Shown here in pieces: positions 8,764-34,804 of a DNA stretch of 64,000 nt. A program made the translations under genes and the position numbers. This DNA is from Gemmataceae bacterium (GTDB lineage: Bacteria > Planctomycetota > Planctomycetia > Gemmatales > Gemmataceae), in the NCBI GenBank assembly GCA_028288765.1, contig JAQGHQ010000360.1:1-64000 (forward strand), in the 5' to 3' direction. Numbering within the stretch: position 1 is the stretch's first letter; the number at the start of each line of letters is the position of its first letter. The notes beneath the pieces were generated by a model. That model did not search any database, was not told the DNA's origin, and saw only the letters and a program-made list of their open reading frames with translations.

Positions 8764-9624
8764 ATGCGTGTCTCTCGCGAACGATCCGCTTTCACCGTCA
8801 TCGAGTTGCTGGTCGTCATCGCCATCATCGGCCTGCTGATCGGGTTGTTGCTCCCGGCCGTCCAGACGGTCCGGGACACTGCCCGCCGTGCCCAGGTCAC
8901 CACGGACATCGCCCAACTCAGCAACGCCGTCGGCGTGTTCCAGTCCGAGACCGGCAACGTCCCGCTCCTTTCCGGCGGAGGCCCGAACGGGGAATTCCGG
9001 TTGCAAACGAGCTACGCGGATCCCGCAAACCCGGGACAGTGGCTCGGGTGGCCGGAGGTGGTTTGGTTGAAGTCGGTGTGGCCGTACATGGGGATGACCG
9101 ACAACGGGCTCCGGCTCAACGGGGCAGTGGTCACGACGACGCTCCTCGACGGGAACCAGGCCCTCGTCTTCTGGCTGACGGGCGGTGAGTACAGCGGCTT
9201 CCAAGGGTTCTCGAAGAACAAGGCCCAGCCGTTCACGCCTCCGACCCCGGCGGGAGCCGGGGCGGTCGCCGAGCAGCGGCAGGGGCCGTACGTCGCCGTC
9301 ACTCTGAACCGTGTGACCGACCCCGCGACAAACATGGTGGATGGGCGGCTTCGGGACATCTACGGCCGCCCCTACGCCTGCTTGGGCTACGTCGCGGCGA
9401 TCAACAATTACCCCAACGTGAAGAGCTTCGGGGTCGCCCCGTATACCGACGCGAACGGGCGGTTCTGGAGTAAGTCGACGGTCCAGATCATCTCGGCCGG
9501 GAAGGACGGTCAGTTCGGCCCAGGCGGGTCGCTGACACCGGGGACGGGCGCGTGGGCGACGAATCAGCCGGGGTGGGACGACCAGGCCAATTTCAAGACG
9601 TCGATGCTCGGAGTGAAGGAGTAG
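8764..9624 (+). CDS. Prepilin-like protein (type IV pilin/pseudopilin N-terminal signal)
   Basis: 286 aa. The N terminus RSAFTVIELLVVIAIIGLLIGLLLPAVQ is a class III (prepilin) signal, cleaved before Phe, with the conserved Glu at mature position 5 and a hydrophobic helix as in planctomycete DUF1559-like pseudopilins. The C-terminal 230 residues form a beta-rich domain. It is the only plus-strand gene inside the late region of the prophage and stands alone with its own upstream region, so it looks like a cargo (moron) gene expressed from the lysogen. Its last 32 bp overlap the converging hldE gene. Confidence 0.82.
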   Translation: MRVSRERSAFTVIELLVVIAIIGLLIGLLLPAVQTVRDTARRAQVTTDIAQLSNAVGVFQSETGNVPLLSGGGPNGEFRLQTSYADPANPGQWLGWPEVVWLKSVWPYMGMTDNGLRLNGAVVTTTLLDGNQALVFWLTGGEYSGFQGFSKNKAQPFTPPTPAGAGAVAEQRQGPYVAVTLNRVTDPATNMVDGRLRDIYGRPYACLGYVAAINNYPNVKSFGVAPYTDANGRFWSKSTVQIISAGKDGQFGPGGSLTPGTGAWATNQPGWDDQANFKTSMLGVKE

Positions 9625-10954
9625 CGAACGCCGGGGCGGTCGCGCGGATCCGCTCGACCAGGGCGGACGTCGACCGCCCGGGCGTCGTCCCGAGGATCCG
9701 GACGATGCCCCCGTGCCGCTCGACCGTGGCCGCCTCTGGTAGCTCGTCCCCCGCATATCCCCCGCCCTTCACCCACACGTCCGGCCGACAGACGTCGAGC
9801 AGCTCGGCGGGCGTGTTCTCGGCGAACGCACACACGTAGTCCACGCACGCGAGGCCCGCCAGGACCGCGAGCCGGTCGGCCAGGTGGTTGACCGGGCGGC
9901 CGAGACCCTTCAGTCTCGTCACGCCGGCGTCATCGTTCACGGCGACGGCCAGGACGTCGCCGATCTGCCGGGCCTCGGCCAGCATCCGAGTGTGCCCGGC
10001 GTGGAGTAGATCGAAGCATCCGCCCGTCATCACCACCCGCCGGCCGCGTGCCCGCTCGCCGGCTAGCCGGTCGGCAAGGCCCGCGCGGTCGAGGACCTTC
10101 CCGCCCCCGGCCAGCTCGGCCGCCAGCTCGGCACGGGTGACCGGCGTCGCCCCGTGTCGCCCGACCTTGATCCCGGCCGCCCGGTTGGCCAGGTCGCAGG
10201 CCTCGTCCCAGATCGCCCCAGATGCCATGCACACCCCGAGCACCGCCAGGACCAGGTCCCCGCACCCCGTCACGTCCACCGCCGGCCGGGCCCGGGTCGG
10301 GTAGTCGACCGCACCGGCACGGCGGGGGTAGTGCGTCATCCCTTGCGGCCCGTCGGTGACGATCACCCCGTAGACCAACCGTTCCCACCAGCCGGCGGAC
10401 TCCCGCTTGTGGCGATCGTACGCCCCGTCCCACTCGGCCCGGTTGCATTTGATCAGAGTCGCCGCGCGGTACTCTTCCCAGGTGCTCCCCGGGGCGGGGT
10501 CGACCAGACACTGGATCCCGCGGTCGGCCGCACCCTCGATCACCGTCCGGAGGACGCCCGGGGTACAGGCGCCCTTTCCGTGGTCGGCGATCAGCACCAC
10601 GTCTGCATCGTCCAGCCCCGCCCGGAGATGGGCGAGGATCTCGGACAGCTGGGCCCGGGTGAGGGCCCCGGCGTCAGTGTCGTGCCGCCAGACCTGACGG
10701 CCGCCGGCGAAGTGTCGCACCTTCAGCGACGGCGGGCCGGTCACCAGGTCGACGGTAGCGCCCAGCGCTGCCACCATCGCCGCGACCGCACCGGCCCCGC
10801 CCGGGCGCTCCTCCCGGCGCTCCTCGGTGAACACCGGGCAGCCCGAGGCCTCGGCGGCGAACCGGTCGCACCGCCCGTGGATGTCCACGTCGCGCATCAT
10901 GTCCCCGACGACGAGCACGCGGCGGCCGGGGACCTGGTCGAGTACGTTACCCAT
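9593..10954 (-). CDS. hldE: Bifunctional D-glycero-beta-manno-heptose-7-phosphate kinase / heptose-1-phosphate adenylyltransferase
   Basis: 453 aa matching the two-domain HldE (RfaE) layout. The N-terminal PfkB-type kinase (1-285) has VVGDMMRDVDIHGRCDR, the anion-hole/catalytic motif DVTGCGDLVLAVL and GPQG. The C-terminal nucleotidyltransferase (about 310-445) has GGCFDLLHAGHTRML with the HxGH motif and VKGGGYAGDELPEA. The family makes ADP-heptose from heptose 7-phosphate in two non-adjacent steps, so GmhA/GmhB or host equivalents would be needed. It begins 3 bp after the glycosyltransferase fusion gene. In this phage the ADP-heptose presumably feeds the heptosyltransferase-like domain next door. 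Confidence 0.92.
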   Translation of the reverse strand: MGNVLDQVPGRRVLVVGDMMRDVDIHGRCDRFAAEASGCPVFTEERREERPGGAGAVAAMVAALGATVDLVTGPPSLKVRHFAGGRQVWRHDTDAGALTRAQLSEILAHLRAGLDDADVVLIADHGKGACTPGVLRTVIEGAADRGIQCLVDPAPGSTWEEYRAATLIKCNRAEWDGAYDRHKRESAGWWERLVYGVIVTDGPQGMTHYPRRAGAVDYPTRARPAVDVTGCGDLVLAVLGVCMASGAIWDEACDLANRAAGIKVGRHGATPVTRAELAAELAGGGKVLDRAGLADRLAGERARGRRVVMTGGCFDLLHAGHTRMLAEARQIGDVLAVAVNDDAGVTRLKGLGRPVNHLADRLAVLAGLACVDYVCAFAENTPAELLDVCRPDVWVKGGGYAGDELPEAATVERHGGIVRILGTTPGRSTSALVERIRATAPAFATPSLRASTS

Positions 10955-10957
10955 GTA

Positions 10958-13546
10958 TCAGAACCTCACGATGGCCTGGTCCCTTGCCCCGCGCTCCACC
11001 CGGCCGCCGAACCGCTCGTGGAGCGCCCGGGCCACGCCGGGGGTCAGGGGCCAGTTGTAGTCGTCCCACACGATCACCCCGCCGGCGGTCATCCGCGGGG
11101 CGAAGTAGTCGCAGGCGGCCAGGGTCGTCTGGTAGGTGTCGCCGTCGACGTGGGCGAACCGGTACCGGGCCCGGTCCGGGGCGGTCCCCGGGAAGACGCC
11201 CACGTGGTACAGCGCCCGCGGGTTGTCGACGTAGGCCCGGGTCTCCGCCTCGGCCGCGGCGAACTCCCCGGCGGCGTGCCCCCCGGCCGCGTCGTCCGCC
11301 GGCAGGCCCGCGAACGTGTCGAACAGGTGCAGGGTCGCGGGTGTGGCGTACCGGCCGATCAGCCGGGCCGTCCCGCCCCGGTACACCCCGACCTCGGCGA
11401 CGTCGCCTGGCAGGTGGTTGGTGCGCAGCACCTCGTCCCGGATCACGGCCAGGCGGTCGGCCGAGACGAGCGACCGGTCGGCGGTCGCGGGCAGGACGAC
11501 CCCGTCGACCGCGGCGAGGATCTGGGCGGGGGTGATCTGGTTCAGGCTCGGACACTGAGGGGAGCACGTTTCCTTTCGATACGGGCGCTGCCAGTAGCAC
11601 CCGCGGCAGGCGAGCGGACCCGTGACCCACCGGACAGACGGGTAACAGCTGAACACACACTCGCCCGTCGTCTGGCCAGTCAGGACCACCGCCGGGGCCC
11701 CGAGCGCACCGGCCAGGTGCGACAGGCCGGAGTCGAGGCCGACGACGCACGCGGCGTTGAGCATGATCCCGGCCACCCGCTCCGGGCCCGCGCCGATCAC
11801 CTTCGGCGACGTGAGCGCCGCGGCCCGCTGGGGGTCGTCGGCCAGGACGACGGTCCGGTACCCGGCGGCGGCCAGGAGCCGTTCGAGGGTCAGCCACCCG
11901 GGCACGCTGTACTCCCGGTCCGACCAGTAGCTGAACGGGCACAGGACCACCGCCCCGGCGTGGTCCCGGCCCGCGGCCCGGACCGCGGCCGGATCCCGCA
12001 GCCGGGGAAGGACCGGGTCGCCCACGGCCCCGATGTTGTCCATGTACCTGCGGATCCGCGGCTTCGCCCCCCGGGTCGTGAGCTCGTGATGGTAGTCCGC
12101 GTTCGCCTGCCGGTCCGGGCCCCCGAGTATCCGGCTGGCGTTGTGGTCCCAGTCCCCGGCCCGGACCTCGGTCGTCCCGAACTCGAACAGCCGGACGAAT
12201 GGCAGCGCCCGCGGCCCGCACTTATAGATGATCGGGATCCGGGGGTTGTCCCTCGCCAGGGCGGCGACCGCCAGCATCCCCTGCACCCCGTCGCCGACCC
12301 CCTGGCACCCCATGTTCACGACGACCGGCCCCGGCGGCGGGGGGGCAGGGAGGAGGGAGGCGTACAGGGCCTGGACCCGGTTTTCGAGCGGCAGGCCGTA
12401 GGGCACGAGCTTCGTCCCGCTGCGATGGACGAACACCGTCGCCCCGGCGTGCCCGAGCAGGTAGGTGTGCTTCGCCCCGGGCACGTGCTCGGCGGTCCCG
12501 AGGACGTACGGGACCCGCCCGGTGGCCGCGAACGCGACCCTCATCGCGTCCTGGTCGCCGAGCATCCGCACGAAGTAGTGGGCGGCCCGGTGGCAGATCC
12601 ACCGGGCCAGCGAGAGTTCGCGCCACGCGTCCGGCCGGCGGATCACCACCTGCCCGCTCTGGATCGGGGGCACGTCGCCCGGGCCCGCCGGCCAGACCTC
12701 CGGCCATTTCAGGTGGTTACTCGCGGTCGGGTGCGTGTCGGTCCAGCACGCGAACCCGGTCGGGCCGGCCAGGTCCAGGAGGAACGACGGGTCCCGGACC
12801 GGGTACAGGTCCGCGTCCAGCCAGAGCGCGGTTTCGAATCGAGTCTGGGCCAGGGCCTCCAGCTTCGCCGCCCACCCCGCCCACTCGGGGTGATCCGCGG
12901 GGATGCCGGGCGGACTGCACTCGTCGTCCAGGGCGATGAGGTCGACCCCGAGCCCGGCGAGCTGGTCGGCCCGGATGCCGCCGGCGGCCGGGCGGTGGTA
13001 CACCTCGACCGGGAGAGTACACCCCGCCTCCCGTAGCAGGCGGACGAGGACGACCACGCCCGGCCAGTAGATCCCCTCGCCGGCGGTGACGATGCCCCGG
13101 CCCGAGCCACCGGGATAAGGGGCGGGTGGGGCCGCGAGCCGGGCCTCCAACCCGGCCCGGTGGGTAGCGACCGCGTCGGCGGGGGGCGCCTCGGCCTCGT
13201 AGTCCGGACAAGATGCGCACGGCTGGACGTGCGGGCCCACGTACTCGCGGGTGCATCGGTCCCGCGCGCCGGCCGGCTCGAAGCATTGTCGGACGTGCCG
13301 ACCCTCCTGGTTGCCGCACAACTTGCACGTCTCGATCACCTTTCCCTCGTGGACGCAGGGCGACCGGACGACGGGGAGCGAGAGGGCCGGGGCTTGTTGG
13401 ACCGGGACGCACTCGGCCGGATTCCCGCCCATAGCCTTGCGGATCTCCGGGCGATGCCACCAGCTCCAGCAATGGCCGCAGTCCCGTCCGTAGACGTAGG
13501 GCTCGCCCTTGCGGACGTTGTCGCAGATACAGCCGTGTCTCATCAT
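10958..13546 (-). CDS. Fused Cys-rich / glycosyltransferase / GT9-like heptosyltransferase / TylF-type methyltransferase
   Basis: 862 aa. Residues 1-140: Cys-rich, zinc-ribbon-like segments (CKLCGNQEGRH, CASC). About 150-400: a glycosyltransferase-like domain with the DxD motif ALWLDADLYPVRD (near 244). About 410-670: a GT9 (ADP-heptose transferase)-like domain ending AACVVGLDSGLSHLAGALGA, followed by a Cys cluster. About 700-862: a TylF/macrocin O-methyltransferase-like domain (GDVAEVGVYRGGTARLIG, LFDTFAGLP, HVDGDTYQTTL). The start overlaps the stop of the tail protein gene as ATGA, and hldE follows. It probably builds and methylates a heptose-containing glycan on the virion or the host surface. 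Domain order is seen; substrates are inferred. Confidence 0.85.
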   Translation of the reverse strand: MMRHGCICDNVRKGEPYVYGRDCGHCWSWWHRPEIRKAMGGNPAECVPVQQAPALSLPVVRSPCVHEGKVIETCKLCGNQEGRHVRQCFEPAGARDRCTREYVGPHVQPCASCPDYEAEAPPADAVATHRAGLEARLAAPPAPYPGGSGRGIVTAGEGIYWPGVVVLVRLLREAGCTLPVEVYHRPAAGGIRADQLAGLGVDLIALDDECSPPGIPADHPEWAGWAAKLEALAQTRFETALWLDADLYPVRDPSFLLDLAGPTGFACWTDTHPTASNHLKWPEVWPAGPGDVPPIQSGQVVIRRPDAWRELSLARWICHRAAHYFVRMLGDQDAMRVAFAATGRVPYVLGTAEHVPGAKHTYLLGHAGATVFVHRSGTKLVPYGLPLENRVQALYASLLPAPPPPGPVVVNMGCQGVGDGVQGMLAVAALARDNPRIPIIYKCGPRALPFVRLFEFGTTEVRAGDWDHNASRILGGPDRQANADYHHELTTRGAKPRIRRYMDNIGAVGDPVLPRLRDPAAVRAAGRDHAGAVVLCPFSYWSDREYSVPGWLTLERLLAAAGYRTVVLADDPQRAAALTSPKVIGAGPERVAGIMLNAACVVGLDSGLSHLAGALGAPAVVLTGQTTGECVFSCYPSVRWVTGPLACRGCYWQRPYRKETCSPQCPSLNQITPAQILAAVDGVVLPATADRSLVSADRLAVIRDEVLRTNHLPGDVAEVGVYRGGTARLIGRYATPATLHLFDTFAGLPADDAAGGHAAGEFAAAEAETRAYVDNPRALYHVGVFPGTAPDRARYRFAHVDGDTYQTTLAACDYFAPRMTAGGVIVWDDYNWPLTPGVARALHERFGGRVERGARDQAIVRF

Positions 13547-15438
13547 GGCCCCGTGATTGTCATAGTGCCCGACCCGGGTGTGATGAACGCACCGACGGTT
13601 AGACCAGTTACCGACAACGGCCCACAGCTGTAAGGACCGGAATTCCCGGCCGGCCACGGGGCTCCGCCGGTCGCGTAACCGAGGACATATTGACTGCTGG
13701 GCGAGAACCCGAATGCCAGCGGATTATTCGTGTTGCCCGGAACCGTGAATTCCCACAATCCCGACGTGGCGTTGTACGTGCTCGTATATGTGCCATTCCC
13801 CCACTGAGCGGAGCCCGACACGGTCAGGTGCAAGACCGACGACGACGTCAGCCCGCACGGGCCGCCGTGGGGACTGCCGCCCCCGCTCCCCGACCCGCAC
13901 GGCCCCGGAGGTGGGAACGTGGTGTCGAATGTGATGGAGGCGTTGTAAAGCAGTCCTGCGACGGAACACGGCGAGCTTGGACAAGTCTGGAACACGGCCG
14001 GGCCGACGTTGCCACTGCCAGATATCGCGTTAGGACTGCACACTTCTGTTAATGGAACAAACAGTTGAATCGCCGGAGTTCCCGGGCACCCGCCACCGGT
14101 GGGGTTGCAGGAACTCGGTATGGCTCCGCTCGGACATCCGGTAATTTCCAGAATCCACTGGGGGCACACGTTAACTAAAAGCGAGACACACAAAGGTATA
14201 TTACATCCACAGATTGTACCCGCTGGGATCAGCGCGGTCAGGCCTCCGGCGTTGAAGTCGTACGTCAACTCCCCGGACCACGTGTACGTCGGCCCGCCGC
14301 CGGGAACCGTGAACACCAGAGTGCATGACGCTGTGTTGAAATGGGTGCTACAGCACGAAACTGCTTGCTGACAGGAAGCCCACTTGACCGCCACAGTGAA
14401 CAGGTTGTACGCCGGCCCGAGTTTGGTTTCGTTTGCACAGCAGATGACGTCGACGCCCGAATTGCCGCCGGAGAAGTACAGCGTCTGGTTCAAAGGGTCG
14501 GCGCAGCTGTATCTCAAATGGTACGTGCCGGTGAACCCGGTGCCGCTCCCGGACCCGCCGCACGGAGGATTCGTCCCGAGCCCGGAAATGAAGAGATCGG
14601 GGTCGTCGTCGGTGGTGGAGTCCCAGAACAGTGTCATCGGGCCCTGGCTGAGACAGGTGCAGAAGTTGTCGCCAACTGCGCTCGTCCAGCCCGACCCGTC
14701 CCACTTCAGGGTGTGGGTCTGGTTCGGGATGCCGGACATGTTGCCAGACTTGGAATAAACGGTGACGGTCCAGCAGTCGTATTTGGTCGCCCCGGCGATG
14801 AAGCCCTCACCGCCACACGCGGCGGTACCGGCGGGTGGGCCGCCGTTGAAGTTCGGGGGCGTGACGTCCCCCACCAGCACGAGGGCCCACGCGAGCCCGG
14901 CCCCCGACCCGGATCCGCCGGCCGCGGCGTCGTGCGCGATGATCGGGATTCCGCCGACCGCGGCACTCTGCAGATAGGATGTCACCCCCGCAACCGGGAC
15001 AGCCCGGGTGTGACTCGGATCGCTGAGCTTGACTTGGCAGACCGCTAACCCGGACGTCACGGCGCGGGCGAAGCCCTGGCCTCGGGCCGGCTCGATCGTG
15101 ATGCAAATCGGATCCATCGGGCCGGTCGGGGCCCGGCCGGCGAACGCGGGGCGACGTTGGACGTTGAACGAGTTCGGCGGGGCCATGTCGATCGTTGGCG
15201 TCCCGTATCCCTGCACGGACCACTCGGGCAGCGCTGCACCCCCGGACCCGTTCGGGTTCTGCACCAGGCAGAGATTGGCCCCGTTGTTCTTGAAATCGAG
15301 CGGGTTGCCCGTGGTGTTGTTCTGCCCCCCGAGCCGGGTCCGGTGGTACGCCTGGGCAGCTTTCATCAGCTGGTTCCAGGTCCTGGCCGGGATCTCGATC
15401 GGCTGGCCGGGGGACACCTCGGCGAACGGGTCGGTCAT
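13543..15438 (-). CDS. Large Cys/Gly/Ser-rich tail or receptor-binding protein candidate
   Basis: 631 aa. The N terminus MTDPFAEVSPGQPIEIPARTWNQLMKAAQ is a short helical segment, followed by a long beta-rich sequence full of Gly, Ser, Thr, Asn and about 40 Cys (for example CCANETK, CCSTHFNTASC), with low-complexity GSGSG linkers. No catalytic motif was seen. It lies at the distal end of the tail genes, after the tape measure, and is coupled to the glycosyltransferase fusion, so a tail-tip or fibre protein that may itself be glycosylated is inferred. The high Cys content suggests disulfides, which is unusual for phage fibres. ATG 15438 follows the preceding stop by 4 bp. Confidence 0.72.
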   Translation of the reverse strand: MTDPFAEVSPGQPIEIPARTWNQLMKAAQAYHRTRLGGQNNTTGNPLDFKNNGANLCLVQNPNGSGGAALPEWSVQGYGTPTIDMAPPNSFNVQRRPAFAGRAPTGPMDPICITIEPARGQGFARAVTSGLAVCQVKLSDPSHTRAVPVAGVTSYLQSAAVGGIPIIAHDAAAGGSGSGAGLAWALVLVGDVTPPNFNGGPPAGTAACGGEGFIAGATKYDCWTVTVYSKSGNMSGIPNQTHTLKWDGSGWTSAVGDNFCTCLSQGPMTLFWDSTTDDDPDLFISGLGTNPPCGGSGSGTGFTGTYHLRYSCADPLNQTLYFSGGNSGVDVICCANETKLGPAYNLFTVAVKWASCQQAVSCCSTHFNTASCTLVFTVPGGGPTYTWSGELTYDFNAGGLTALIPAGTICGCNIPLCVSLLVNVCPQWILEITGCPSGAIPSSCNPTGGGCPGTPAIQLFVPLTEVCSPNAISGSGNVGPAVFQTCPSSPCSVAGLLYNASITFDTTFPPPGPCGSGSGGGSPHGGPCGLTSSSVLHLTVSGSAQWGNGTYTSTYNATSGLWEFTVPGNTNNPLAFGFSPSSQYVLGYATGGAPWPAGNSGPYSCGPLSVTGLTVGAFITPGSGTMTITGP

Positions 15439-22621: not shown

Positions 22622-25096
22622 TCACGCGCCCGGCGACTTGACTCCCGCCCTCGGGTTCTGCATCGCCGCGCCGTAGTCGTGGAACCCGCGGATATCGATC
22701 CCGAGTTCGTTAAAGTTGGCCTGGGCGGTCTGGACGGTCGGCGTCTCCTGGCCGTTGAGGAACGCCATCTCGATCGAGGACAGGCCGGTCAGTTGCGGGT
22801 TGGCGAACAGGTACCACGCCAAGGCCGAGAAGCCCGTGTACAGCGGGTTCTGGAGGTACGGCACCTTGACCGGTTTGAACCTCCCCTTGAAGGCGTTTTC
22901 CTGCGGCTGCTTGGCCGCGGTCGCCCCGCCGTACACGATGAACTGCGAGTTCATCAGGCTCACCGCCTGGGAGTCCAGGGCCGGCGGGTAGATGAGGATC
23001 GCCGGCTCGACGCCCAGGGGCTGGCCGTTCGCTTTCACCTGCATGTCGAACAGGGTCACCGCGGCCTGCAGCCCGTCGACCGAGAGGGCCGACCCGGCCC
23101 CGGCCGCGACCAGGTTCGACTGGATCGCCCCGCCCCCGAGCGCGTTCGGGGCCGTGTTCCGGTTGAAGTAGAACGCGTTGCCGTCGGTCCAGTTCGGCGG
23201 GTTGAGGAAGAGCGTCCAGAACAGCTTGGAGATCGAATCCGAACACCCCACGCCGAGGAGCATCGGGACCGTGGTGAGGCCGCTGATGTCGTCGTTGATG
23301 ATCATTTGCCGCGAGATCTTGAGCATCCGGGCAAACGTGTCGATCTGGTTCGCGTAGGGCTCATCGGTGAGCGCGGCGGACTGGATCTGCCCGTCGGCGT
23401 TCAGCTTCAGGAACAGCATGTCCCCGGTCACGTTGATCGACTTGGTCGGCTTGAAGTCCTTGACCGGCCGGGTGGTGCAGACCTCTTTCCAGGCCATGTT
23501 GGCGTTGAGGTACCCGGTCAGCAGGAACTTGTTGAGCACGTTGGCCAACAGGTTCTGGATCGAGATCGTGCTCCCGCCGTCGGCGCGGATGTCCCGCGAC
23601 CGGAAGGCGCACTGCAACACCTCCTCGATGTTGCCGACGCCGATCCGGGTGTCGCCCTTGTACCCCCCGCCCCGGGCCGCGATCGTCAGGACCTGGTGCA
23701 GGTCGATGCCGCCCTTGTAGAGCTTCCGGGCCGAGTCGAGGACCTGCTCCGAATAGGCGGCCTTGAAATCCGACTGGACCTCCCGCTGCACTTCTTCCGG
23801 GACCCGGCGGTCGGAGGCTTCGAGCCCCTGGCCGCCCTGGTAGAAGGAGTTGTTCAGGAGCTTGGTGGCGCCGCCCAGCTGGAGGATGGCCGCCTCGATC
23901 ACCGACTGGTTCCGGAGCGGATCGGACGGGCTGTACCAGTGCGGGCCAGGCTCCTGCCGGCTCCCGCGGATGGTCTCGACCCGGATCTTCTTCGCCACCT
24001 GATCAGGGGACCAGCCCGCCTTGATCGCGTGCTCGGCGAGCGGCACCTCGACCGTCTTGCGGTTGCGGGTGATCTGGATCATCAGGCCTGGGTGGGCGGC
24101 GGTGTGGCCCTGGATCCCCGCGATCCGCGCCTGCTCGGCCCGGATGGCTTTGATGTCCCGCCGGCCGGCCGCCTTCGTGTCCGAGGGCGCATCGTCGTCG
24201 TCGTCGTCCTCGTCCGAGGCCTCGGTGTCCTTCCCCTTGTCCGTGTCCTCGTCCTCCTCGTCCTCGTCCTCGTCGTCCTGCTCGTCGTACTCGGCCCGGA
24301 GCTTGGCCTTCATCTTGTCCGTCATGTCGGCCGTGTCGCCGTACCCCTCGGCCTCGCACCACTTGTTGAAGTCGGTGTCCGCGGCCTCGGTGTCCTTGGT
24401 CTTGTCCTCGTCCTCGTCCGCGGCGCGGATCCGCCGGCCGGACACGGCCCGCTTCCCGCCCTTCGCTCCGCCCGCGATCCTCTTACCGTTCTTGACCCTC
24501 TTCATGGTCTTCCCCTGGTTCGCGGCGACGAGCGCCGACGTTTGGTCATCCGCCCCGATCACCACAAACGAGACTTCCCGCAATTTGGTCTTCCGCACGA
24601 CGTTGACCGGCCCCTCGAACTCCCGACCGTTGACGTTGACCGTCAGGCCGTCGCCGATGAACTCCGTCTTCAGCGACTTGGCCCCGATCGACATTTGCCA
24701 CTTCAGCCCGTCGTCCGCGAGCTGGATGATGTCTTTCGCGGCCGGCCGGTTCTCGAAGAAGGTCCCAGTCAGCCGGAGCTTTCCGCCCTCGATCGCGGCT
24801 GTCTTCGACTGGGCGACCACGTACTCCCGGACCGGGCGGTCGGAACTCCAGCCGGGCCCGTGGTTGTCCAGGACCGGGAACACCTCATCGCCGAGGTCGA
24901 ACCCCTCCAGGTCGCACACCACGGGGTATCCCCACCCCATCGCGGACTGGTCGAGCGGGCCGCCCGTGTAGGCGATCACGTCGAACGTCCGCGGCTTCTT
25001 CTTGCCGTTCGCGCCCGGGGCCTCGGCCGCGCGGATCGTGACGGTCCCGACGATCCCCAGCTCGTCCGGGTCAGACTTCGACGGGGACTTTGGCAC
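22622..25096 (-). CDS. Prohead protease-acidic linker-major capsid fusion
   Basis: 824 aa in three parts. Residues 1-165: prohead protease-like, with FPVLDNHGPGWSS (His near 77) and WQMSIGAKSL (Ser near 135), the expected catalytic pair of HK97-type proteases. About 200-305: an extremely acidic stretch (DEQDDEDEDEEDEDTDKGKD), likely the scaffold or delta domain removed on maturation. About 340-824: major capsid protein with ISRQMIINDDISGL and a C-terminal capsid-like half, reminiscent of Mu gpT-type heads. The GTG start 25096 has GGAGG 9 nt upstream; ATG 25132 is possible but has a poorer site. The gene overlaps the portal gene by 26 bp. Self-cleavage to release the capsid protein is inferred. 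Confidence 0.85.
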   Translation of the reverse strand: MPKSPSKSDPDELGIVGTVTIRAAEAPGANGKKKPRTFDVIAYTGGPLDQSAMGWGYPVVCDLEGFDLGDEVFPVLDNHGPGWSSDRPVREYVVAQSKTAAIEGGKLRLTGTFFENRPAAKDIIQLADDGLKWQMSIGAKSLKTEFIGDGLTVNVNGREFEGPVNVVRKTKLREVSFVVIGADDQTSALVAANQGKTMKRVKNGKRIAGGAKGGKRAVSGRRIRAADEDEDKTKDTEAADTDFNKWCEAEGYGDTADMTDKMKAKLRAEYDEQDDEDEDEEDEDTDKGKDTEASDEDDDDDDAPSDTKAAGRRDIKAIRAEQARIAGIQGHTAAHPGLMIQITRNRKTVEVPLAEHAIKAGWSPDQVAKKIRVETIRGSRQEPGPHWYSPSDPLRNQSVIEAAILQLGGATKLLNNSFYQGGQGLEASDRRVPEEVQREVQSDFKAAYSEQVLDSARKLYKGGIDLHQVLTIAARGGGYKGDTRIGVGNIEEVLQCAFRSRDIRADGGSTISIQNLLANVLNKFLLTGYLNANMAWKEVCTTRPVKDFKPTKSINVTGDMLFLKLNADGQIQSAALTDEPYANQIDTFARMLKISRQMIINDDISGLTTVPMLLGVGCSDSISKLFWTLFLNPPNWTDGNAFYFNRNTAPNALGGGAIQSNLVAAGAGSALSVDGLQAAVTLFDMQVKANGQPLGVEPAILIYPPALDSQAVSLMNSQFIVYGGATAAKQPQENAFKGRFKPVKVPYLQNPLYTGFSALAWYLFANPQLTGLSSIEMAFLNGQETPTVQTAQANFNELGIDIRGFHDYGAAMQNPRAGVKSPGA

Positions 25097-27926
25097 GGCG
25101 CCGCGCCTCCGTTTTGGTTCCGGCCCGGCCATACTTCTCGTGCGTCTTGCGCGAGTAGTAGGTGTCGTGGGCCCCGGCGTGTTCCTTCTTCCGCTCCTCG
25201 TACCCGGCCTTCTCGGCGGTCTCGGCCTCCTGGTCGAGCTGGTCCAGCTCGGCCTGGTGGCGGGCGTCGCGGTCGGCCTGGGCCTTCTCGAACTCCTCCT
25301 GCCTGGCGTCGGCGGCGGCGGACCGCTTCTGGTCGAGGGCCTCGTCCTCGGCATCGCGCCCGGACTGCCCCTTCTCGTCCGCTTCGTCCCGCGTCTGCTG
25401 CCGGGCGTCGTCGTCGTCGGACCGCTTGTTCTCGACGACCTCCCAGGCGTCGTCCTCCTGCTGTCGCTTCGCCTCCCGGTCGGCGTCTTCCTTGTCCCGT
25501 TGGGCCTGCCGCCCCTCGTCTTCCGTGTCGCGGGCCTCGGTGGTGTCGTTCGAGACGTCTTCCTGCAGCTTCTGCTCGGCCGCGTACCGGGCGTCGTATT
25601 TGGCCTGCGCCTCCTGGTCCTGCTGGTCGTACTTCTCGTCGACCCCCTCGCGCTCCTCGTCGTGCTTGGCCTCCAGCTCGTCGCGGTGGTCCCCGCGGTC
25701 GTCCTCGGCGACCCCGTCCTTGTCGAGCTGCTTTTCGAGGTCCGCTTTTTCCTGCTCCTGCCGCGCGGCCAGGTCCTTGTGCTCGGCCGCCCGGTCCTGT
25801 TTGATCTGCTTGTCCGCGGCCTCCACCTCGTCGTTCATTGCCTCTTCTTCGGCCTTGGCCCGTTTCTCCTCGGCCGCGTCTTCCCGGGTCCGCTGGCGTT
25901 CGGTGTCCTTGTCCTCGCGCTCGCGGGTCTTTTTGGTGTCGGCGTCCTCGCGCTCGCGGGCTTTCTCCGCTGCCTCCCGCTCCTTGTCCTCTTTGGCCCG
26001 CTGCCGCTCCGTGTCCTGGTCTTCCTTGGCGCGGGTCTTTTTGGTGTCGGCGTCCTCGCGGTCACGAGCCTTCCCGATGGCCTTGTCTTCCGTCTCGGCC
26101 GAGGTGGTCGCGTGTTCCTCGATCTTCTGGTGGGCCTTTTCGTGTTCGTCGTTCTCGGCCTGGTGGCGATGCTCGGCGTCGGCCCGCTTGTCCTCGTGCT
26201 TCTCGTCCGCGGCCGCGTCCTGGTCGGACCACCGGTCGTGATGCTCGGCGTGGTCGTCGTGGCCTTTGCCCCCGGCCGACCCGCCCCCGCTGCCGAACTT
26301 GCCGTCCGCGGCGTGCTCCACGCCGTTGTCGTCCTTGCCGGCGCGGATGAGCCGGCCGGTCGCGTCCACGTGGAAGCGGGCCTTCGTGTCCGTCGGGGGC
26401 GGTGACCCGGGCGGGGTTGCGGCCGGGATCTCCGGGGCCTTGTGGAGTAGGGCCTCGACCGGGATCTGGAACTCGCCGGCGAGCTTGTAGGCGTAGGCCG
26501 TTTCCTCGGCCGTCTGGCGCAGTGCGATCCGCCAGTCCTCACCCTTCTCGGCGTAGATCGCCGACAGGGTCTTGGTCCCGTTCTGCAGCTCCAACTGCTG
26601 GGCCTGCTGCTCTTCGAGCGGGTTGATGCTCTCCGCGCTGTCCCAGAACCAGCGGTGCGGGAGGTCGGCGATCGTGAGGTCGTCGGGCAGGAGGCCGGGG
26701 ATCTCGACGGCCTCCTCCAGCCAGGCGGCGAGGATCTTGTCGAGGACGCACTCGACCAGGAGCTGCCGGTCGACCCGCTGCATCCGGTGATACCCGAGGT
26801 GTTCGAGCCGGCCGGACGAGTAGTTGGACCCGCTGAAGTCGCCCATCGCGATCGTCAGCGGGATCCCGAGGCACCGGCAGATTTCCCGGAGCAGGACCCG
26901 GACGAACATTTCGTACGTCGTCGCGGGCTGGGTCGCGGCCAGGCCGGTGACGTCAGTCCCCCACGGCAGGGTGGTGAGCATTCCCCGGTGGAGCTGGAGC
27001 CGTTCGAACGGTTCCGGGTCCGCCGGGTCGACGTTGGCGGGCACCTGCGTCTTCATGAACAGGGCCATGTCGGCCGCGGCCTCGGCCGCGGCCAGCACCG
27101 CCTTGGTGAACCGCCTCAGCTGGGCGAACAGGTCGAGGGCCGGGGTGAGCTCCGGGACGCCGCGGGCCTGCCCGGGCCGGTCCTTCCGGAACCAGTGGCA
27201 CACGTCCCGCGGCCGCCAGCGGTCGTACTTGAGCGGGTTCAACTGCGGGATGAACAGGTCGCCCGGGTGATGCCGGAGGACGTGGTACTCGGCCGGGTTT
27301 CCCAGGCGATCCAGCACCAGGCCGTCGACCCAGAAGTAATCGGTGAACCCGGGGTCCGGGGTGGTGACCTGGTCGGATTCGATCACGACCACGTCGAGCT
27401 GCACCGCGTCCTCGACGTCGAGCGTCCGCACGTCCACGTCGGGGCTCGACGGGTCCTGGGGCTGCTGCCCGAACGTCCGCGCGAGGTTCCGGTTGGTCAC
27501 GAGCAGGCCGAAGGCCTCGCCGTCCTGCACCTTGGCCTTGGCCATGAGCCGCAACTTGTCGGCCAGGCCGATCGCCCGGGCCCAGTTGTGCCAGGCGTTC
27601 TGTACTGCCCGGTTGATGCCCACGTCGCCGGAGCGGACCTGTATGCGCGGCCCCGACCCGATGAGGTCGTTGGACAGGCTGTTGGTGATGCCGCGGAAGT
27701 AGCTGTTGTTCGCGGCCTCGTACCGGCTGCGGATCTTCAGGGTCTTCCTGACCTGGAACGAGTTCGCGGCCCGGGCCGAGAGGTAATCCGTCCCCCGCCA
27801 GAGCGGTTCGTTCTCGTGGGTGGTCTCGGCCCCCTCGTACCGCCCCTGGACGTTCCGGCCCCGCTGCGGCGGGCCGGATCGCCCGCCGCCGAACACCCGC
27901 CCCAGGAGTCGTCCGAACCGACTCAC
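25071..27926 (-). CDS. Portal protein with a 400-residue charged coiled-coil extension
   Basis: 951 aa. Residues 1-510 look like a lambda gpB-type portal: LKIRSRYEAANNSYFRGITNSL, VQDGEAFGLLVT, GRLEHLGYHRMQRVDRQLL. After a Pro-rich link and a GKFGSGGGSAGGKG linker (about 545) comes a 400-residue run of Asp, Glu, Lys, Arg and Ala built from related units (EDADTKKTRAKEDQDTERQR, EDADTKKTREREDKDTERQR), ending in a basic tail. Typical portals are near 500-550 residues. The GTG start 27926 has GGGGAG 6 nt upstream and overlaps the previous stop. The extension could act as scaffold or organise internal DNA; that is a guess. Confidence 0.87.
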   Translation of the reverse strand: MSRFGRLLGRVFGGGRSGPPQRGRNVQGRYEGAETTHENEPLWRGTDYLSARAANSFQVRKTLKIRSRYEAANNSYFRGITNSLSNDLIGSGPRIQVRSGDVGINRAVQNAWHNWARAIGLADKLRLMAKAKVQDGEAFGLLVTNRNLARTFGQQPQDPSSPDVDVRTLDVEDAVQLDVVVIESDQVTTPDPGFTDYFWVDGLVLDRLGNPAEYHVLRHHPGDLFIPQLNPLKYDRWRPRDVCHWFRKDRPGQARGVPELTPALDLFAQLRRFTKAVLAAAEAAADMALFMKTQVPANVDPADPEPFERLQLHRGMLTTLPWGTDVTGLAATQPATTYEMFVRVLLREICRCLGIPLTIAMGDFSGSNYSSGRLEHLGYHRMQRVDRQLLVECVLDKILAAWLEEAVEIPGLLPDDLTIADLPHRWFWDSAESINPLEEQQAQQLELQNGTKTLSAIYAEKGEDWRIALRQTAEETAYAYKLAGEFQIPVEALLHKAPEIPAATPPGSPPPTDTKARFHVDATGRLIRAGKDDNGVEHAADGKFGSGGGSAGGKGHDDHAEHHDRWSDQDAAADEKHEDKRADAEHRHQAENDEHEKAHQKIEEHATTSAETEDKAIGKARDREDADTKKTRAKEDQDTERQRAKEDKEREAAEKAREREDADTKKTREREDKDTERQRTREDAAEEKRAKAEEEAMNDEVEAADKQIKQDRAAEHKDLAARQEQEKADLEKQLDKDGVAEDDRGDHRDELEAKHDEEREGVDEKYDQQDQEAQAKYDARYAAEQKLQEDVSNDTTEARDTEDEGRQAQRDKEDADREAKRQQEDDAWEVVENKRSDDDDARQQTRDEADEKGQSGRDAEDEALDQKRSAAADARQEEFEKAQADRDARHQAELDQLDQEAETAEKAGYEERKKEHAGAHDTYYSRKTHEKYGRAGTKTEARRRAKVPVEV

Positions 27927-28435: not shown

Positions 28436-28773
28436 TTTCCGTCGTTCGGAATTATGATGGGTTCGGCGGGTTGGTCATCAGCAGGGTTTGCGCCAAGGAA
28501 GGCGGAGAGCAACGCTTCGTTCCTCGCCATTGCCATCTTTACTCCCGCCTCCTGGAAGTGGGCGTTCTGTTCGGCCAGCTCTACGCACAGGGCGGCAAGA
28601 GCGTCCTCGAACGAATTGAAGCCACCGCTTTGCCATGCGGTCAGAAAGGTCTTGACGATGGGGCTTCGGTACGCCAACCGCCAGAGTTCTTCAATCGCTG
28701 TCCGTCGCCTGGACTCGTCCCGCTGGGAATGAGCCCACAGTCTGTACCATAAGTCTCGTTCGCTCGTCTTCAT
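28432..28773 (-). CDS. Unknown phage protein, 113 aa
   Basis: Not recognised. MKTSERDLWYRLWAHSQRDESRRR, then helical segments rich in Ala, Glu and Phe, ending PAEPIIIPNDGK. It is bracketed by ATGA overlaps with the terminase gene and the zinc-finger-like gene, so it is part of the packaging operon. Confidence 0.65.
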   Translation of the reverse strand: MKTSERDLWYRLWAHSQRDESRRRTAIEELWRLAYRSPIVKTFLTAWQSGGFNSFEDALAALCVELAEQNAHFQEAGVKMAMARNEALLSAFLGANPADDQPAEPIIIPNDGK

Positions 28774-30935
28774 GTTCCGTCCCTCTTGCCCTTCTGCACC
28801 TCGGACCACTTTACCTTCTTTCGCTCGGCCTGGGGAACGGCGCCCTCCCCTGCGGCCTGGCCGGCCGACCAGCTCAGGCCCTGGACGCTCGCGGCGACGG
28901 CCGCCCCGACCAGGCAATCCCACCAGTGATTGTCGCGCCCCGGCAGGGCCTTCCATTCCTCGACGACCCGCCCCCCGCTCTGCCGGGTCACCGCGACTGG
29001 GTACTCGGCGGTGCAGTGGTCCGCGAACAACCGGTGCCCACCCGCTTGCGGCGCGTGCAGACGGAGACACCCCGCTCCCCCCTCGGCGGTGCGGAGACGC
29101 TCGGCGACGAAGGTCTTCCACCCGTTCGTATCGAACGTGACGTGCCGCCCTCGGCCGGCCGCGCCGATCGACAGTCGCCAGCCCTGGCCGGCCCGCTCCC
29201 CGGGCTTCAGCTGCCAGCTGCTCATCGGGTTCGAGCTGGCGCCGATGAACTTCCCGTGCGATGGGTACAACGTGGCGGCGAACGGCGATCGCCGGCAGAA
29301 CTCGTACACCAGGTCCGTCCCGGGTCCCCAGTTCGCGTCGACCATGCACCGCTCGACCGACAGCTCCGCCCCGGTCCCCTCCTGCAAGTACCCCTTGCCG
29401 AGGATCCGCGTGGTGACCGCCTTCAGCCCGCCGTAGATCGCGGCCTCCTGCTGGCCCGCGTACTCGGGCAGATCGGTCAGGGACGGCCGGACGTCGGCCG
29501 AGCTGAAGTAGGTCCGGCGCTGGTCGGGGTACTCCCCGTAGTCGATCACGGACCCGCCGAACCGTTCATCCCAGGAGACCACCAGGTACCACAGCAGGTG
29601 AGCGCCCACGTCGACGAAGGCGGTGAGGCGGGTACACGAGCGCGGGACGATCCGGGTGGCCAGGTTGGTGACCCGGGCGGCCAGCTCGCCGGCGTCGAGC
29701 CGGTCCACCCCGACCGGCCCGCGGGACTCGGGCCGGTTCTGGTACTCGGCCATGAACGCGGCCCGGTCGCGGCAGTACAGGTGCATGGCGTGCTGGATCG
29801 CCGACACCTCCCCGTCGAGCTTGCGATCCTCCCAGCTCGCTTCCGCCCCCGCCTCCAGCTCGGCCTGGTGGGCGACGTAGTACGCATTCGATCCCGCGAA
29901 GTCCGGCGGTTCGAGCTGGGCACAGCTGCGGTAGATCTCGAAGTAGGAATCCCAGGCGATCAGGTTGGTCGGGAGCGACACCAGCATCCCGGTCCGCTCG
30001 CCCCGCCAAAACGGGTGTTTCTCGCGGTCGAGGATCTGGTCGATGAAGTCGCCCTGCTCGATCACCGTACACGGCATCACCGCGGCGATCGACTGGCCCG
30101 GGCCGGCCATGCCGAGGACGTCCGCGCTGACCAGCTGCTCGCGGTCCGTGTTCTGCAACTTGCTCCGGGCCGACTCGTGCGTCTGGGGATCGTCGAGCAG
30201 GACGAAGTCCGGGCGGATCGCCTCCCCGGTCATGAGGGTCAGGTTCGAACCGCGGATCCCCTCGCCGGTGAGCCCGGACGCGCTCACGACCGCCCCCGAG
30301 GTCGGGACCATCCCGTCGGCCCGGAGGGGCCAGTGCTTGGGCCAGTTCGGGGGCGGGGGTACGGTCGGGAAGACGATCCGGTCGGCGGTCCACTCGATCA
30401 TCGTGGGCGCGTCCAGGCACGTCTGGCCGGCGGAGCGATTGGCGATACCAGCGAGACGGCGGATCGCGTGCGAGATCTCGGGGAAGTCCTCGACGAAGAG
30501 GGGCAGGAACCGGGTGTAGACCTTCAGGGCGGCCAGCGTGTCCTTGGCCTTCTCGGCGTTCGCCCCGATCACGAACACGTACCGGCGGATCGCGTAGGCC
30601 AGGGCCCACAGCGCGGCCATGCGGCACAGGGTCGTCTTGCCGCTCCCCCGCGCCATGGCGAACGCGAACAGGGCCCCGAGCAGGGCCGCTTCCTCAATGC
30701 GGGCGATCGCCGTCAGGTGATCCCTCGACCAGCCGAGGGAGAAGGCGTCGGGGTTGTAGATCTCGCAGAAGACCCGGAGCGATTCCCGCCCCCGATCGCG
30801 CCGGCCGATGTCCCCGATCGGCGGCACGGGCCCGATCTCGCGCCCCTTGGCCGACTTCTCGCGGGAGATGTCGGCCTGCTTCTCCCGGTAGGCGTCGTAG
30901 TCGTCGCCGGCCGGCGTGGAGGTGCGTTTAGCCAC
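28770..30935 (-). CDS. Terminase large subunit (GpA-like)
   Basis: 721 aa. The ATPase half has Walker A AMARGSGKTTLCRM (near residue 98) and Walker B PDFVLLDDPQTHE (near 243). The nuclease half has TAFVDVGAHLLWYLVVSW and a late acidic patch GRDNHWWDCLVGAAVAA. The length and style fit GpA-type large terminases, which cut and pump DNA into the prohead through the portal. It begins 8 bp inside the end of a small zinc-ribbon gene. No typical small terminase with helix-turn-helix was found nearby; the 75-aa gene at 31157 is the only positional candidate. Confidence 0.92.
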   Translation of the reverse strand: MAKRTSTPAGDDYDAYREKQADISREKSAKGREIGPVPPIGDIGRRDRGRESLRVFCEIYNPDAFSLGWSRDHLTAIARIEEAALLGALFAFAMARGSGKTTLCRMAALWALAYAIRRYVFVIGANAEKAKDTLAALKVYTRFLPLFVEDFPEISHAIRRLAGIANRSAGQTCLDAPTMIEWTADRIVFPTVPPPPNWPKHWPLRADGMVPTSGAVVSASGLTGEGIRGSNLTLMTGEAIRPDFVLLDDPQTHESARSKLQNTDREQLVSADVLGMAGPGQSIAAVMPCTVIEQGDFIDQILDREKHPFWRGERTGMLVSLPTNLIAWDSYFEIYRSCAQLEPPDFAGSNAYYVAHQAELEAGAEASWEDRKLDGEVSAIQHAMHLYCRDRAAFMAEYQNRPESRGPVGVDRLDAGELAARVTNLATRIVPRSCTRLTAFVDVGAHLLWYLVVSWDERFGGSVIDYGEYPDQRRTYFSSADVRPSLTDLPEYAGQQEAAIYGGLKAVTTRILGKGYLQEGTGAELSVERCMVDANWGPGTDLVYEFCRRSPFAATLYPSHGKFIGASSNPMSSWQLKPGERAGQGWRLSIGAAGRGRHVTFDTNGWKTFVAERLRTAEGGAGCLRLHAPQAGGHRLFADHCTAEYPVAVTRQSGGRVVEEWKALPGRDNHWWDCLVGAAVAASVQGLSWSAGQAAGEGAVPQAERKKVKWSEVQKGKRDGT

Positions 30936-32712: not shown

Positions 32713-32948
32713 CAGAAAGGCTCCTTGGGACCGCGGTGCCGTCGTATGCGGTCGCACCGGGGACAGATCAGCCGATGAACTCCGTCGCGCTTTCGTTCCG
32801 CGACCCATCCAGCCTTTGTAGCCTTGGCCAGGATGAGAAGGTCGTCGGGACCATGGTGTTCGGGCGACGAGGCGCCACAATTCACACACAAGGTCCACCA
32901 CAGCCCTTTTCCGTTCGAAAACAGGTACTCGGTGTAGGTGGTGGTCAT
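32712..32948 (-). CDS. Zinc-ribbon protein, 78 aa
   Basis: MTTTYTEYLFSNGKGLWWTLCVNCGASSPEHHG and later LICPRCDRIRRHRG: a CxxC...CxxC ribbon around a helix (DDLLILAKATKAGWV). Its ATG overlaps the stop of the large ParB-like gene. Function unknown; nucleic-acid binding is likely for this class. Confidence 0.68.
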   Translation of the reverse strand: MTTTYTEYLFSNGKGLWWTLCVNCGASSPEHHGPDDLLILAKATKAGWVAERKRDGVHRLICPRCDRIRRHRGPKEPF

Positions 32949-34804
32949 GCCTTCGAGTCTCCCCGCTCAGACGGGTTGGAGTATCCCACCTCCACGAAAT
33001 CCGGATCCCCGGGCTTGGACAGAAGGCCGAGGTCCTGGAGTTGCTGCTCGGCCGTCTTCTTCGGGGTGCGAGCGCTTGTACCTTTCTCCGGCGCCTTCTT
33101 GACCTCGACCTGGTCGCCCTTCTTGACTTCGGCCTTGATCGCGTCCAGATCGATGCCGAGCACCTTGAACAGCAGCTTGTGGCGGGTGCGATCTTCACCG
33201 GGATAGGACAGCGCTTTCGCGACGGAGAGTTCGGCGATCAGCCCGAATGCTTCCGCCCCGGTGAGATCGACCAGCTCACCGGGGCGGTCCGATCGACCCT
33301 GCCGGCGTTTACGGGCGGCAGTGACTACCTCACCCCAAAACTCATCAACAACGGACACGCAGACGGCGTGCAGGACGTCACCCCAAGGCCCACTCCCCGG
33401 GTTGACCTTAATCAGCCGTTCGGCCGCCGCGGCGGCCAGCTCCTGGCCCCGCCGGCGGACGGCGGCCCATTCCTTCTGTTCCTGCGCACGCTTGGCATCA
33501 GCGGGTGAGCGGTTCGGAGTGTTCGCCTTCACCCCGAGCTGGTGATGGTCCCGGAGGATCTTCGCCGCGGTCGCCTTGTCGACCAGCTCGTGCGGCCGGC
33601 CGGACTGGTCGACCGCGATCACGACCTGGTCGGGCTTGAGATGCTCCTTCAGCAGGGTCTGGTAAGAGCGGTTCCGGCTGTCCTCGTAGCACTTCCCGTC
33701 CAGTTCGACGTAGGGGGAGTGGTAGCTCAGCCGGTTATCCCAGCTGTTGAACAGGCCGCCGGATTGCTTGGCGGTCAACACTTTCTGCCCGGACGTGGCC
33801 GCGGCCTCGACCTGCTTCCGCTGGTGGGCTTGTTCCTTCTTCCGGTAACACGCCGGGTCGAGGCACATATCGGCCCGGATCTCCTTATAGGCCTCGTCCT
33901 CGACCGCGGCATTACCGGCGCGCTTCGGGCACCGTTCACAGCTCGTCGTTCCCTCGACCAGGTCGAGGGCCTTGCGGTCGAACGGGGCCTTCTTCAGCTC
34001 GAGCTGGAAGCACTCGGCGATGAGCGACTTGGTTTCCCTCACGGTGAGGACCTCCGCGCCGTCTTTCGGCGTCGGAGGTTTGTCGCCCGGCTTCCACCAC
34101 CGTTGACCCGCGAGCACGCACTTGGCCAGGGTCTGGCAGGCTTCCTCCGCTGGCACCCGGGCGACCAGCTCGGCGACGATCCGCGGAAGCCGGCCGGAGT
34201 CGACGGCCTTGAGGACCTCGGGTACCAGTCGGACCAGCCGGGCCAGTTTGAGCATGCCGCGGACGTAGGGTAGTTTCTTACCCGTGTTCGTGGCGATCTG
34301 TTCGGGCGACTGTCCTTCCTTGACCAGCGCCTCGTAGCCAGCTGCCTCGTCGCTGATCGACAAGTCCTTGCGCTGCACGTTCTCGATCAACTGGATCACC
34401 CGGACCTGCTCGTCGGTGAGGTCCATGATGTCGACCCGGACAATGTCCCGCTTGGCGATCCGGGACGCCCGGTACCGGCATTCGCCGCAGACGATCTCGT
34501 AATGATCGACTCCGACCCATGCGCCGTGTACGAGTTGGGGGATAACACCTCCTTTCTTTGACGCGGCGATGGGTCGGACGAGCAGCCGTTCAAGCACCCC
34601 GACCTGGCGAATGCTGTCCGCCAGCGAGTCGAGGTAAAGGGGATCGAACGACTTGCGCGGGTTGGTGGGCGACGGCTTGAGCTGAGTGAGTTTCAGTTCG
34701 CAGGGCACCACCGGCGTCGTGGGCGCGACCAGGGGGGCGATCTTGAGGGCGGGGATTGAGGTGGGCGGCCGGGTCTTGCGGGCCGCCGAGCTGACTACGG
34801 TCAT
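32945..34804 (-). CDS. Large ParB/Srx-domain protein with Cys-rich insert
   Basis: 619 aa. The N-terminal ParB/Srx domain (about 40-145) has LKPSPTNPRKSFDPLYLDSLADSI and YEIVCGECRYRASRIAKRD (the GERR box as GECR) and IENVQRKDLS. A KorB-like helical domain follows (GQSPEQIATNTGKKLPYVRGML). Near 290-330 is a Cys set (CERCPKRAGN, CLDPACYRKK) typical of phage ParB-like proteins. The rest is charged and helical. It is too large and too far from parA to be the partition ParB; in phages such proteins are linked to DNA binding, replication or transcription control. One copy of the 22-bp palindrome lies in its coding sequence near the 3' end. Confidence 0.8.
   Translation of the reverse strand: MTVVSSAARKTRPPTSIPALKIAPLVAPTTPVVPCELKLTQLKPSPTNPRKSFDPLYLDSLADSIRQVGVLERLLVRPIAASKKGGVIPQLVHGAWVGVDHYEIVCGECRYRASRIAKRDIVRVDIMDLTDEQVRVIQLIENVQRKDLSISDEAAGYEALVKEGQSPEQIATNTGKKLPYVRGMLKLARLVRLVPEVLKAVDSGRLPRIVAELVARVPAEEACQTLAKCVLAGQRWWKPGDKPPTPKDGAEVLTVRETKSLIAECFQLELKKAPFDRKALDLVEGTTSCERCPKRAGNAAVEDEAYKEIRADMCLDPACYRKKEQAHQRKQVEAAATSGQKVLTAKQSGGLFNSWDNRLSYHSPYVELDGKCYEDSRNRSYQTLLKEHLKPDQVVIAVDQSGRPHELVDKATAAKILRDHHQLGVKANTPNRSPADAKRAQEQKEWAAVRRRGQELAAAAAERLIKVNPGSGPWGDVLHAVCVSVVDEFWGEVVTAARKRRQGRSDRPGELVDLTGAEAFGLIAELSVAKALSYPGEDRTRHKLLFKVLGIDLDAIKAEVKKGDQVEVKKAPEKGTSARTPKKTAEQQLQDLGLLSKPGDPDFVEVGYSNPSERGDSKA
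33063..33084. promoter_or_regulatory. 22-bp palindrome copy inside the ParB-like gene
   Basis: Left GGGGTGCGAGC, right GCTTGTACCTT: 20 of 22 positions fit the consensus. It is inside the coding region (encoding KGTSARTPK), about 120 bp from the 3' end of the gene, and 115 bp upstream of the next minus-strand start at 32948. Confidence 0.65.

Follow-up and report, generated by a model that had tools for sequence, protein, structure and literature searches.

A lambda-family portal gene extended by a charged 11-residue-repeat rod in a prophage of a planctomycete-type genome

The window analyzed here, a stretch of 64,000 nucleotides, contains a prophage of a planctomycete-type genome. Its head genes lie on the minus strand in the order found in the lambda family: terminase, portal, and protease/capsid. 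Upstream of the portal gene is the gene for the terminase large subunit (28770..30935, minus strand), which was recognized by PF20454 and by a PHROG terminase match. Downstream is a gene in which a protease, an acidic linker, and a major capsid protein are fused (22622..25096, minus strand; PF25209, a weak match to PF04586, and PHROG labels for head maturation protease and major head). This gene probably starts at GTG 25096, with ATG 25132 as an alternative, and its precursor aligns with those of 2 related loci, L032 and L040. In addition, a ParB-like protein (ParB_N and HTH_ParB) is encoded upstream of the terminase gene (32945-34804, minus strand), and a PfkB/cytidylyltransferase gene stands beside a large glycosyltransferase-methyltransferase gene at 9593-13657 (minus strand), near the phage structural genes. 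In L040 and L032 as well, glycosyltransferase-like ORFs follow the capsid gene.

The portal gene itself (25071..27926, minus strand) is complete and forms a single open frame. Its product of 951 amino acids is counted from GTG 27926, the best start, which has GGGGAG ahead of it; TTG 27953 is an alternative. The stop codon occupies 25071-25073. The ORF lies on the minus strand, and plus-strand translation of the same interval is interrupted by internal stops. The GC content at third codon positions is 0.94 in the portal core and 0.91 in the C-terminal extension, and that at second positions is low throughout both. These values are typical of coding DNA, so that the extension is neither shifted nor noncoding, and the full-length frame with its steady codon-position signature argues against a frameshift. 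The first-pass annotation, which had read the gene as a portal with a coiled coil attached, named a frameshift or a separate start for the coil as what would refute it. Neither was found: the sole ATG inside the extension frame is codon 706, which has a weak Shine-Dalgarno sequence and is not conserved in L032. The single open frame rules out the coil as a separate gene or a frameshift product.

The N-terminal part of the protein (26472..27926, minus strand) is a portal of the lambda family. Pfam Phage_portal_2 (PF05136) matches residues 64-393 with an E-value of 3.4e-57 and a score of 194.6 bits, against a gathering cut-off of 32.9, and the family profile aligns, up to the end of the core, with portals of known structure, namely 8gtd, 8vhx, and 8k38 (lambda B). 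The AF2 model of this region has pLDDT values mostly between 80 and 97, and Foldseek matched it to the portals of phage Chi, R4C, and lambda, with TM-scores by target of 0.66-0.72. The likeness to lambda gpB thus covers both the fold over the full length of the core and the position between the terminase and protease/capsid genes. These results bear out the portal identity proposed earlier, with a core of about 485 residues rather than the 510 first estimated. Where lambda gpB (533 amino acids) stops at the crown, however, the window protein goes on for some 440 residues more.

This extension begins with a Gly/Pro-rich linker between the portal crown and the remainder of the protein (26217..26471, minus strand). 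AF2 assigned low pLDDT values (29-41) to model residues ~498-570, indicating a disordered stretch of ~75-85 residues. The extension as a whole, given in the first-pass annotation as a glycine linker and a coil of 400 residues, is better described as a disordered linker of ~85 residues plus a helical part of ~360. Within the linker lies a junction motif, AGKDDNGVEHAADGKFGSGGGSAGGKG (26262..26342, minus strand); the window junction is also written as AGKDDNGVEHAADGKFGSGGG or KDDNGVEHAADGKFGSGGG. Near-identical copies of the motif occur in head-region proteins of L206, L207 (twice), and L239. A pattern for EHAADGKFG matched only 4 stretches in IMG/VR, and a pattern for HAADGKFG occurred once in 95 family genomes, in the window gene itself, and in none of the 94 relatives.

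The linker leads into a highly charged rod of ~362 residues (25131..26216, minus strand), composed for 35% of Asp and Glu and for 20% of Lys and Arg, with a net charge of -48 per chain. AF2 modeled it, as a monomer and with moderate confidence, as 4 helices (51, 108, 102, and 76 residues) with short loops between them. The rod had been annotated as a 400-residue repetitive coiled coil made of related EDADTKKTR units. A long charged repeat region is indeed present within the portal polypeptide, but each unit proves to be 11 residues long. Residues of the same charge recur in excess at lag 11 (z = 5.8; z = 6.7 for the rod of L032), and a repeat model with K = 11 scored 177 on the window rod, compared with 88-99 (~92) for shuffled sequences. 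The register persists over ~33 units with few slips. When 2.0 Mb of sequence from 244 loci was scanned, all 16 windows with a lag-11 z above 3 fell in the window and L032 proteins, which places the pattern well above chance; no other 11-residue charged modules were found in these loci. A heptad model (K = 7) did no better than shuffles and was rejected in favor of the 11-residue repeat. As the repeats are not heptads and contain only ~0.8 large hydrophobic residues each, the term “coiled coil” is doubtful. The suggestion that the rod organizes DNA is weakened in turn, as a net charge of -48 per chain makes DNA binding unlikely. At the DNA level, 2 direct repeats of 108 nt (72% identical; 25851..26066, minus strand) encode 2 RxREDADTKKTR blocks, and this partial duplication shows repeat growth.

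The shape of the rod raises the question of whether 12 copies form a helical tube that extends the portal channel into the head and guides the DNA. Helical barrels at the portal C-terminus are known from P22 (PMC4992974) and from crAss001, where residues 672-739 span about 80 Å (PMC10172136), and both share with the window protein a long helical C-terminal stretch that would project toward the head interior. In these portals, however, the helices are continuous with the crown, whereas the disordered linker of ~75-85 residues parts crown from rod in the window protein, and loops break the rod into separate helices. The DNA-piloting protein H of phiX174 uses 11-residue helical repeats as well (PMC7354561), the same repeat length that dominates the window rod. 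It is a different protein at a different location, however, and forms a tube, while the window rod was modeled as a monomer only. Moreover, its sequence (taken from PMC7354561) contains 2.3 large hydrophobic residues per 11, about 3 times the 0.8 counted in the rod. The disordered linker, the scarcity of large hydrophobic residues, and the net charge of each chain together make a P22-like barrel decidedly improbable.

The extension could not be assigned by similarity. Pfam and PHROG gave no match over it, thus detecting no effector domain, and a PDB sequence search with the rod returned nothing better than an E-value of ~0.6. Searches for the rod module found no match in the 95 family genomes outside the source genome, none in phages by tblastn (in which the low-complexity filter limits the search), and none in viral contigs other than L032.

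The comparison with related portals drew on 138 ORFs (122 distinct) from viral contigs and planctomycete genomes in which the portal C-terminus is intact. Scans of genome contigs with the portal core returned no relatives; searches of whole genomes across the phylum Planctomycetota gave further portal frames, none of which exceeds 646 amino acids. Outside the window and L032 copies, the tail beyond the core has a median length of 28 and a maximum of 128 residues, versus ~440-470 residues in the window copies and 378 in those of L032. Among ~120 distinct relatives, L032 (IMG/VR 3300031753_000018), whose portal core is 62% identical to that of the window, is the only other with a comparable charged-repeat extension, answering the call in the first-pass annotation for the same fusion in other phages. 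The accompanying statement that the protein is far beyond normal portals holds against close relatives, with tails of at most 128 residues, but not in general, as fusions of 750-2,084 amino acids exist elsewhere. In L032, the extension starts with PAGSPEGGQFAPKGGGG (longer form, RNPAGSPEGGQFAPKGGGGGG), continues with a rod predicted from sequence alone as one 138-residue helix (pLDDT ~90), and is followed by a second junction (DERGRFAPKAGG), a 54-residue helix, and a small 4-helix domain. A fold search with this extension gave nothing significant. Several distant portal relatives (L033-L039) share a different C-terminal addition of ~139 residues ending in KGSTWDAYGKGRQAWDGWGGDAGRTWANR, another modular tail.

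The closest relative, L040 (core 66-70% identical), has the same gene order as the window and an acidic capsid linker, but lacks the extension. A more distant locus, L157 (L157:4497-6248), has neither the linker nor the extension; its protease-capsid precursor is without the acidic linker found in the window, L032, and L040. The strongly supported tree, (L157,(L032,(window,L040))), makes L040 the sister of the window and leaves L157 outside, implying either a single gain of the rod followed by its loss in L040 or two separate gains. Since the window and L040 share their last codons, which overlap the start of the capsid gene (25074..25130, minus strand; CCAAAGTCCCCG is common to both in a comparison of the gene-end DNA), the rod must have been cleanly inserted or deleted between the core and these final codons. 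The similarity score of the window and L032 rods, 170, exceeds that of composition shuffles (mean 125, maximum 166), but shuffles that preserve the register reach 192, so that common descent is not proven.

These comparisons bear on the earlier proposal of a built-in scaffold that contacts the acidic linker of the capsid precursor. In a fuller version of this model, rods on the portal would touch the scaffold-like linker between protease and capsid, start procapsid assembly around the portal, and perhaps be cut by the prohead protease. Charged helical proteins are frequent among phage scaffolds. In HK97, the capsid protein has a scaffold domain that binds the portal via coiled-coil towers (PMC10275583). 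The acidic linker is present in the window, L032, and L040. However, the HK97 scaffold touches the portal wing rather than the C-terminus, and rod and acidic linker are both net negative. L040 encodes a homologous precursor with its acidic linker and no rod, L157 does without both, and the rod is absent from more than 100 other relatives. As the nearest relative makes the same kind of capsid precursor without it, a scaffold function is disfavored, and we regard it as quite unlikely; rather, the extension appears to be an accessory module than an obligatory part of assembly.

The patchy presence of the rod on the tree, the internal 108-nt duplication, and the clean insertion between the core and the conserved last codons would also suit a near-neutral expansion, in which a charged 33-nt repeat grew at a permissive site near the gene end and was tolerated without any special function. 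This is unlikely in our view, as more than 360 codons remain open and have the GC3 of coding DNA, and the ~33 units hold their 11-residue register with few slips. In addition, L032, with a core only 62% identical, shows the same charge pattern and carries defined modules after it.

The junctions were compared as well. While tblastn with the short junction peptides gave no match owing to the low-complexity filter, degenerate DNA patterns did recover junctions. The pattern for PEGGQFA matched 42 stretches in IMG/VR. Apart from a few that match by chance, these place the motif between modules of head-region proteins. Over 2 pattern scans of IMG/VR, the junction was found C-terminal of a head domain in 14 proteins, the head domains being Portal_Mu, Phage_portal, Phage_portal_3, the lambda portal, MuF, and the S78 protease. 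Recognized domains downstream of the junctions include Zeta toxin, ART-PolyVal, FAD oxidoreductase, metallopeptidase-like, Tis1-type, and LPD13 domains; junction proteins without a head domain contained ADPrib_exo_Tox, NUDIX, or topoisomerase IB. Junctions of the PEGGQFA type join Phage_portal to a metallopeptidase-like domain (L165) and MuF to LPD13 (L179) or a Tis1 domain (L199), and occur with the S78 protease (L175), Phage_portal_3 (L181 and L189), and Portal_Mu (L197). The pattern for the window form recovered Phage_portal_3 with ART-PolyVal (L237) or Zeta (L241), Portal_Mu with ART-PolyVal (L227), and another lambda-family portal (L239:3624-5900), with the junction GKDATGHEHAADGKFGKGG. 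The largest portal fusions among the loci examined are 2 Portal_Mu proteins of 2,084 and 2,068 amino acids (L200:3474-9725 and L201:461-6664), in which 2 SPEGGQFAPKDG junctions separate Portal_Mu, FAD oxidoreductase-like, and Zeta toxin domains.

The full KDxxGHEH-AADGKFGSGG junction recurs in L206:3654-6581, L207:8858-11683, L222, and L239:3624-5900. The L206 protein combines both variants, AADGKFGSGG and KGSGxGGGQFT, each after KDxxGHEH; they separate a metalloprotease-like part, in which an HExxH-type sequence was recognized by eye, from a helical part and a topoisomerase IB domain. The junction occurs twice in L207, which also has a MuF-like neighbor.

Effector fusions to portal and MuF domains have been published before (PMC5512222, PMC5576092), and the effectors are presumed to enter the virion and to be injected (Iyer 2017, PMC5512222). 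The window protein resembles these fusions, including the MuF polymorphic toxins (Jamet 2017), in that one ORF encodes a head protein, then a glycine-rich junction, and finally a separate module at the C-terminus, and its junction motif is the same as those of L239, L200, L241, and L237. Sharing a junction with cargo-bearing head proteins is a feature defined here rather than a published criterion: the word “linker” does not appear in PMC5512222 or PMC5576092, and we found no paper on a phage GGQF motif, which does not prove its absence from the literature. As other phages attach cargo to head proteins with such junctions, the window extension begins with a cargo-type junction. It differs in that its module is a charged repeat rod with no recognized enzymatic domain. 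With no recognizable effector domain after the junction, the cargo reading rests on junction and position; as neither Pfam nor PHROG matched the extension, we class the protein as sharing the architecture of these fusions, not as a polyvalent protein.

On balance, we somewhat favor the reading of the gene as a portal-cargo fusion, in which the cargo is a nonenzymatic charged helical rod serving as an accessory internal head protein. The N-terminal ~485 residues would act as a normal lambda-type portal subunit, from which the flexible glycine-rich junction, of the kind used by many phages, would hang the ~360-residue rod. In lambda gpB, the C-terminal domain is the crown (PMC10721106). Since the crown faces the head interior and the portal C-terminus follows it, the rod is expected inside the head. 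Portal incorporation alone would bring 12 extensions of ~50 kDa, about 600 kDa in all, into the head, where they would stay anchored close to the portal and around the DNA, unless proteolysis releases them. Our best guess for the rod is a mechanical or packing role inside the head, or that of a stalk bearing other modules, such as the helical domain behind the second junction of L032; it may modulate DNA packing or ejection and would be dispensable for head assembly.

More speculatively, the sites at which cargo is attached to portal, MuF, and protease proteins may bear a junction signal common to phages and dedicated to this use (KDxxGxEH-AADGKFGSGG, SPEGGQFA-GGG, or DERGRFA-GG), possibly for processing or loading, and the rod, as a purely structural cargo, may belong to a new class of capsid-internal, portal-tethered proteins that shape DNA packing or ejection; we hold this combined proposal to be less likely than not. 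The recurrent motif offers a simple handle for finding cargo borne by portal, MuF, and protease proteins in unannotated viral genomes. The window and L040, with and without the rod at the same locus, make the role of an internal head protein directly testable, and fusion to the portal would be an automatic 12-copy route for placing a protein inside the phage head.
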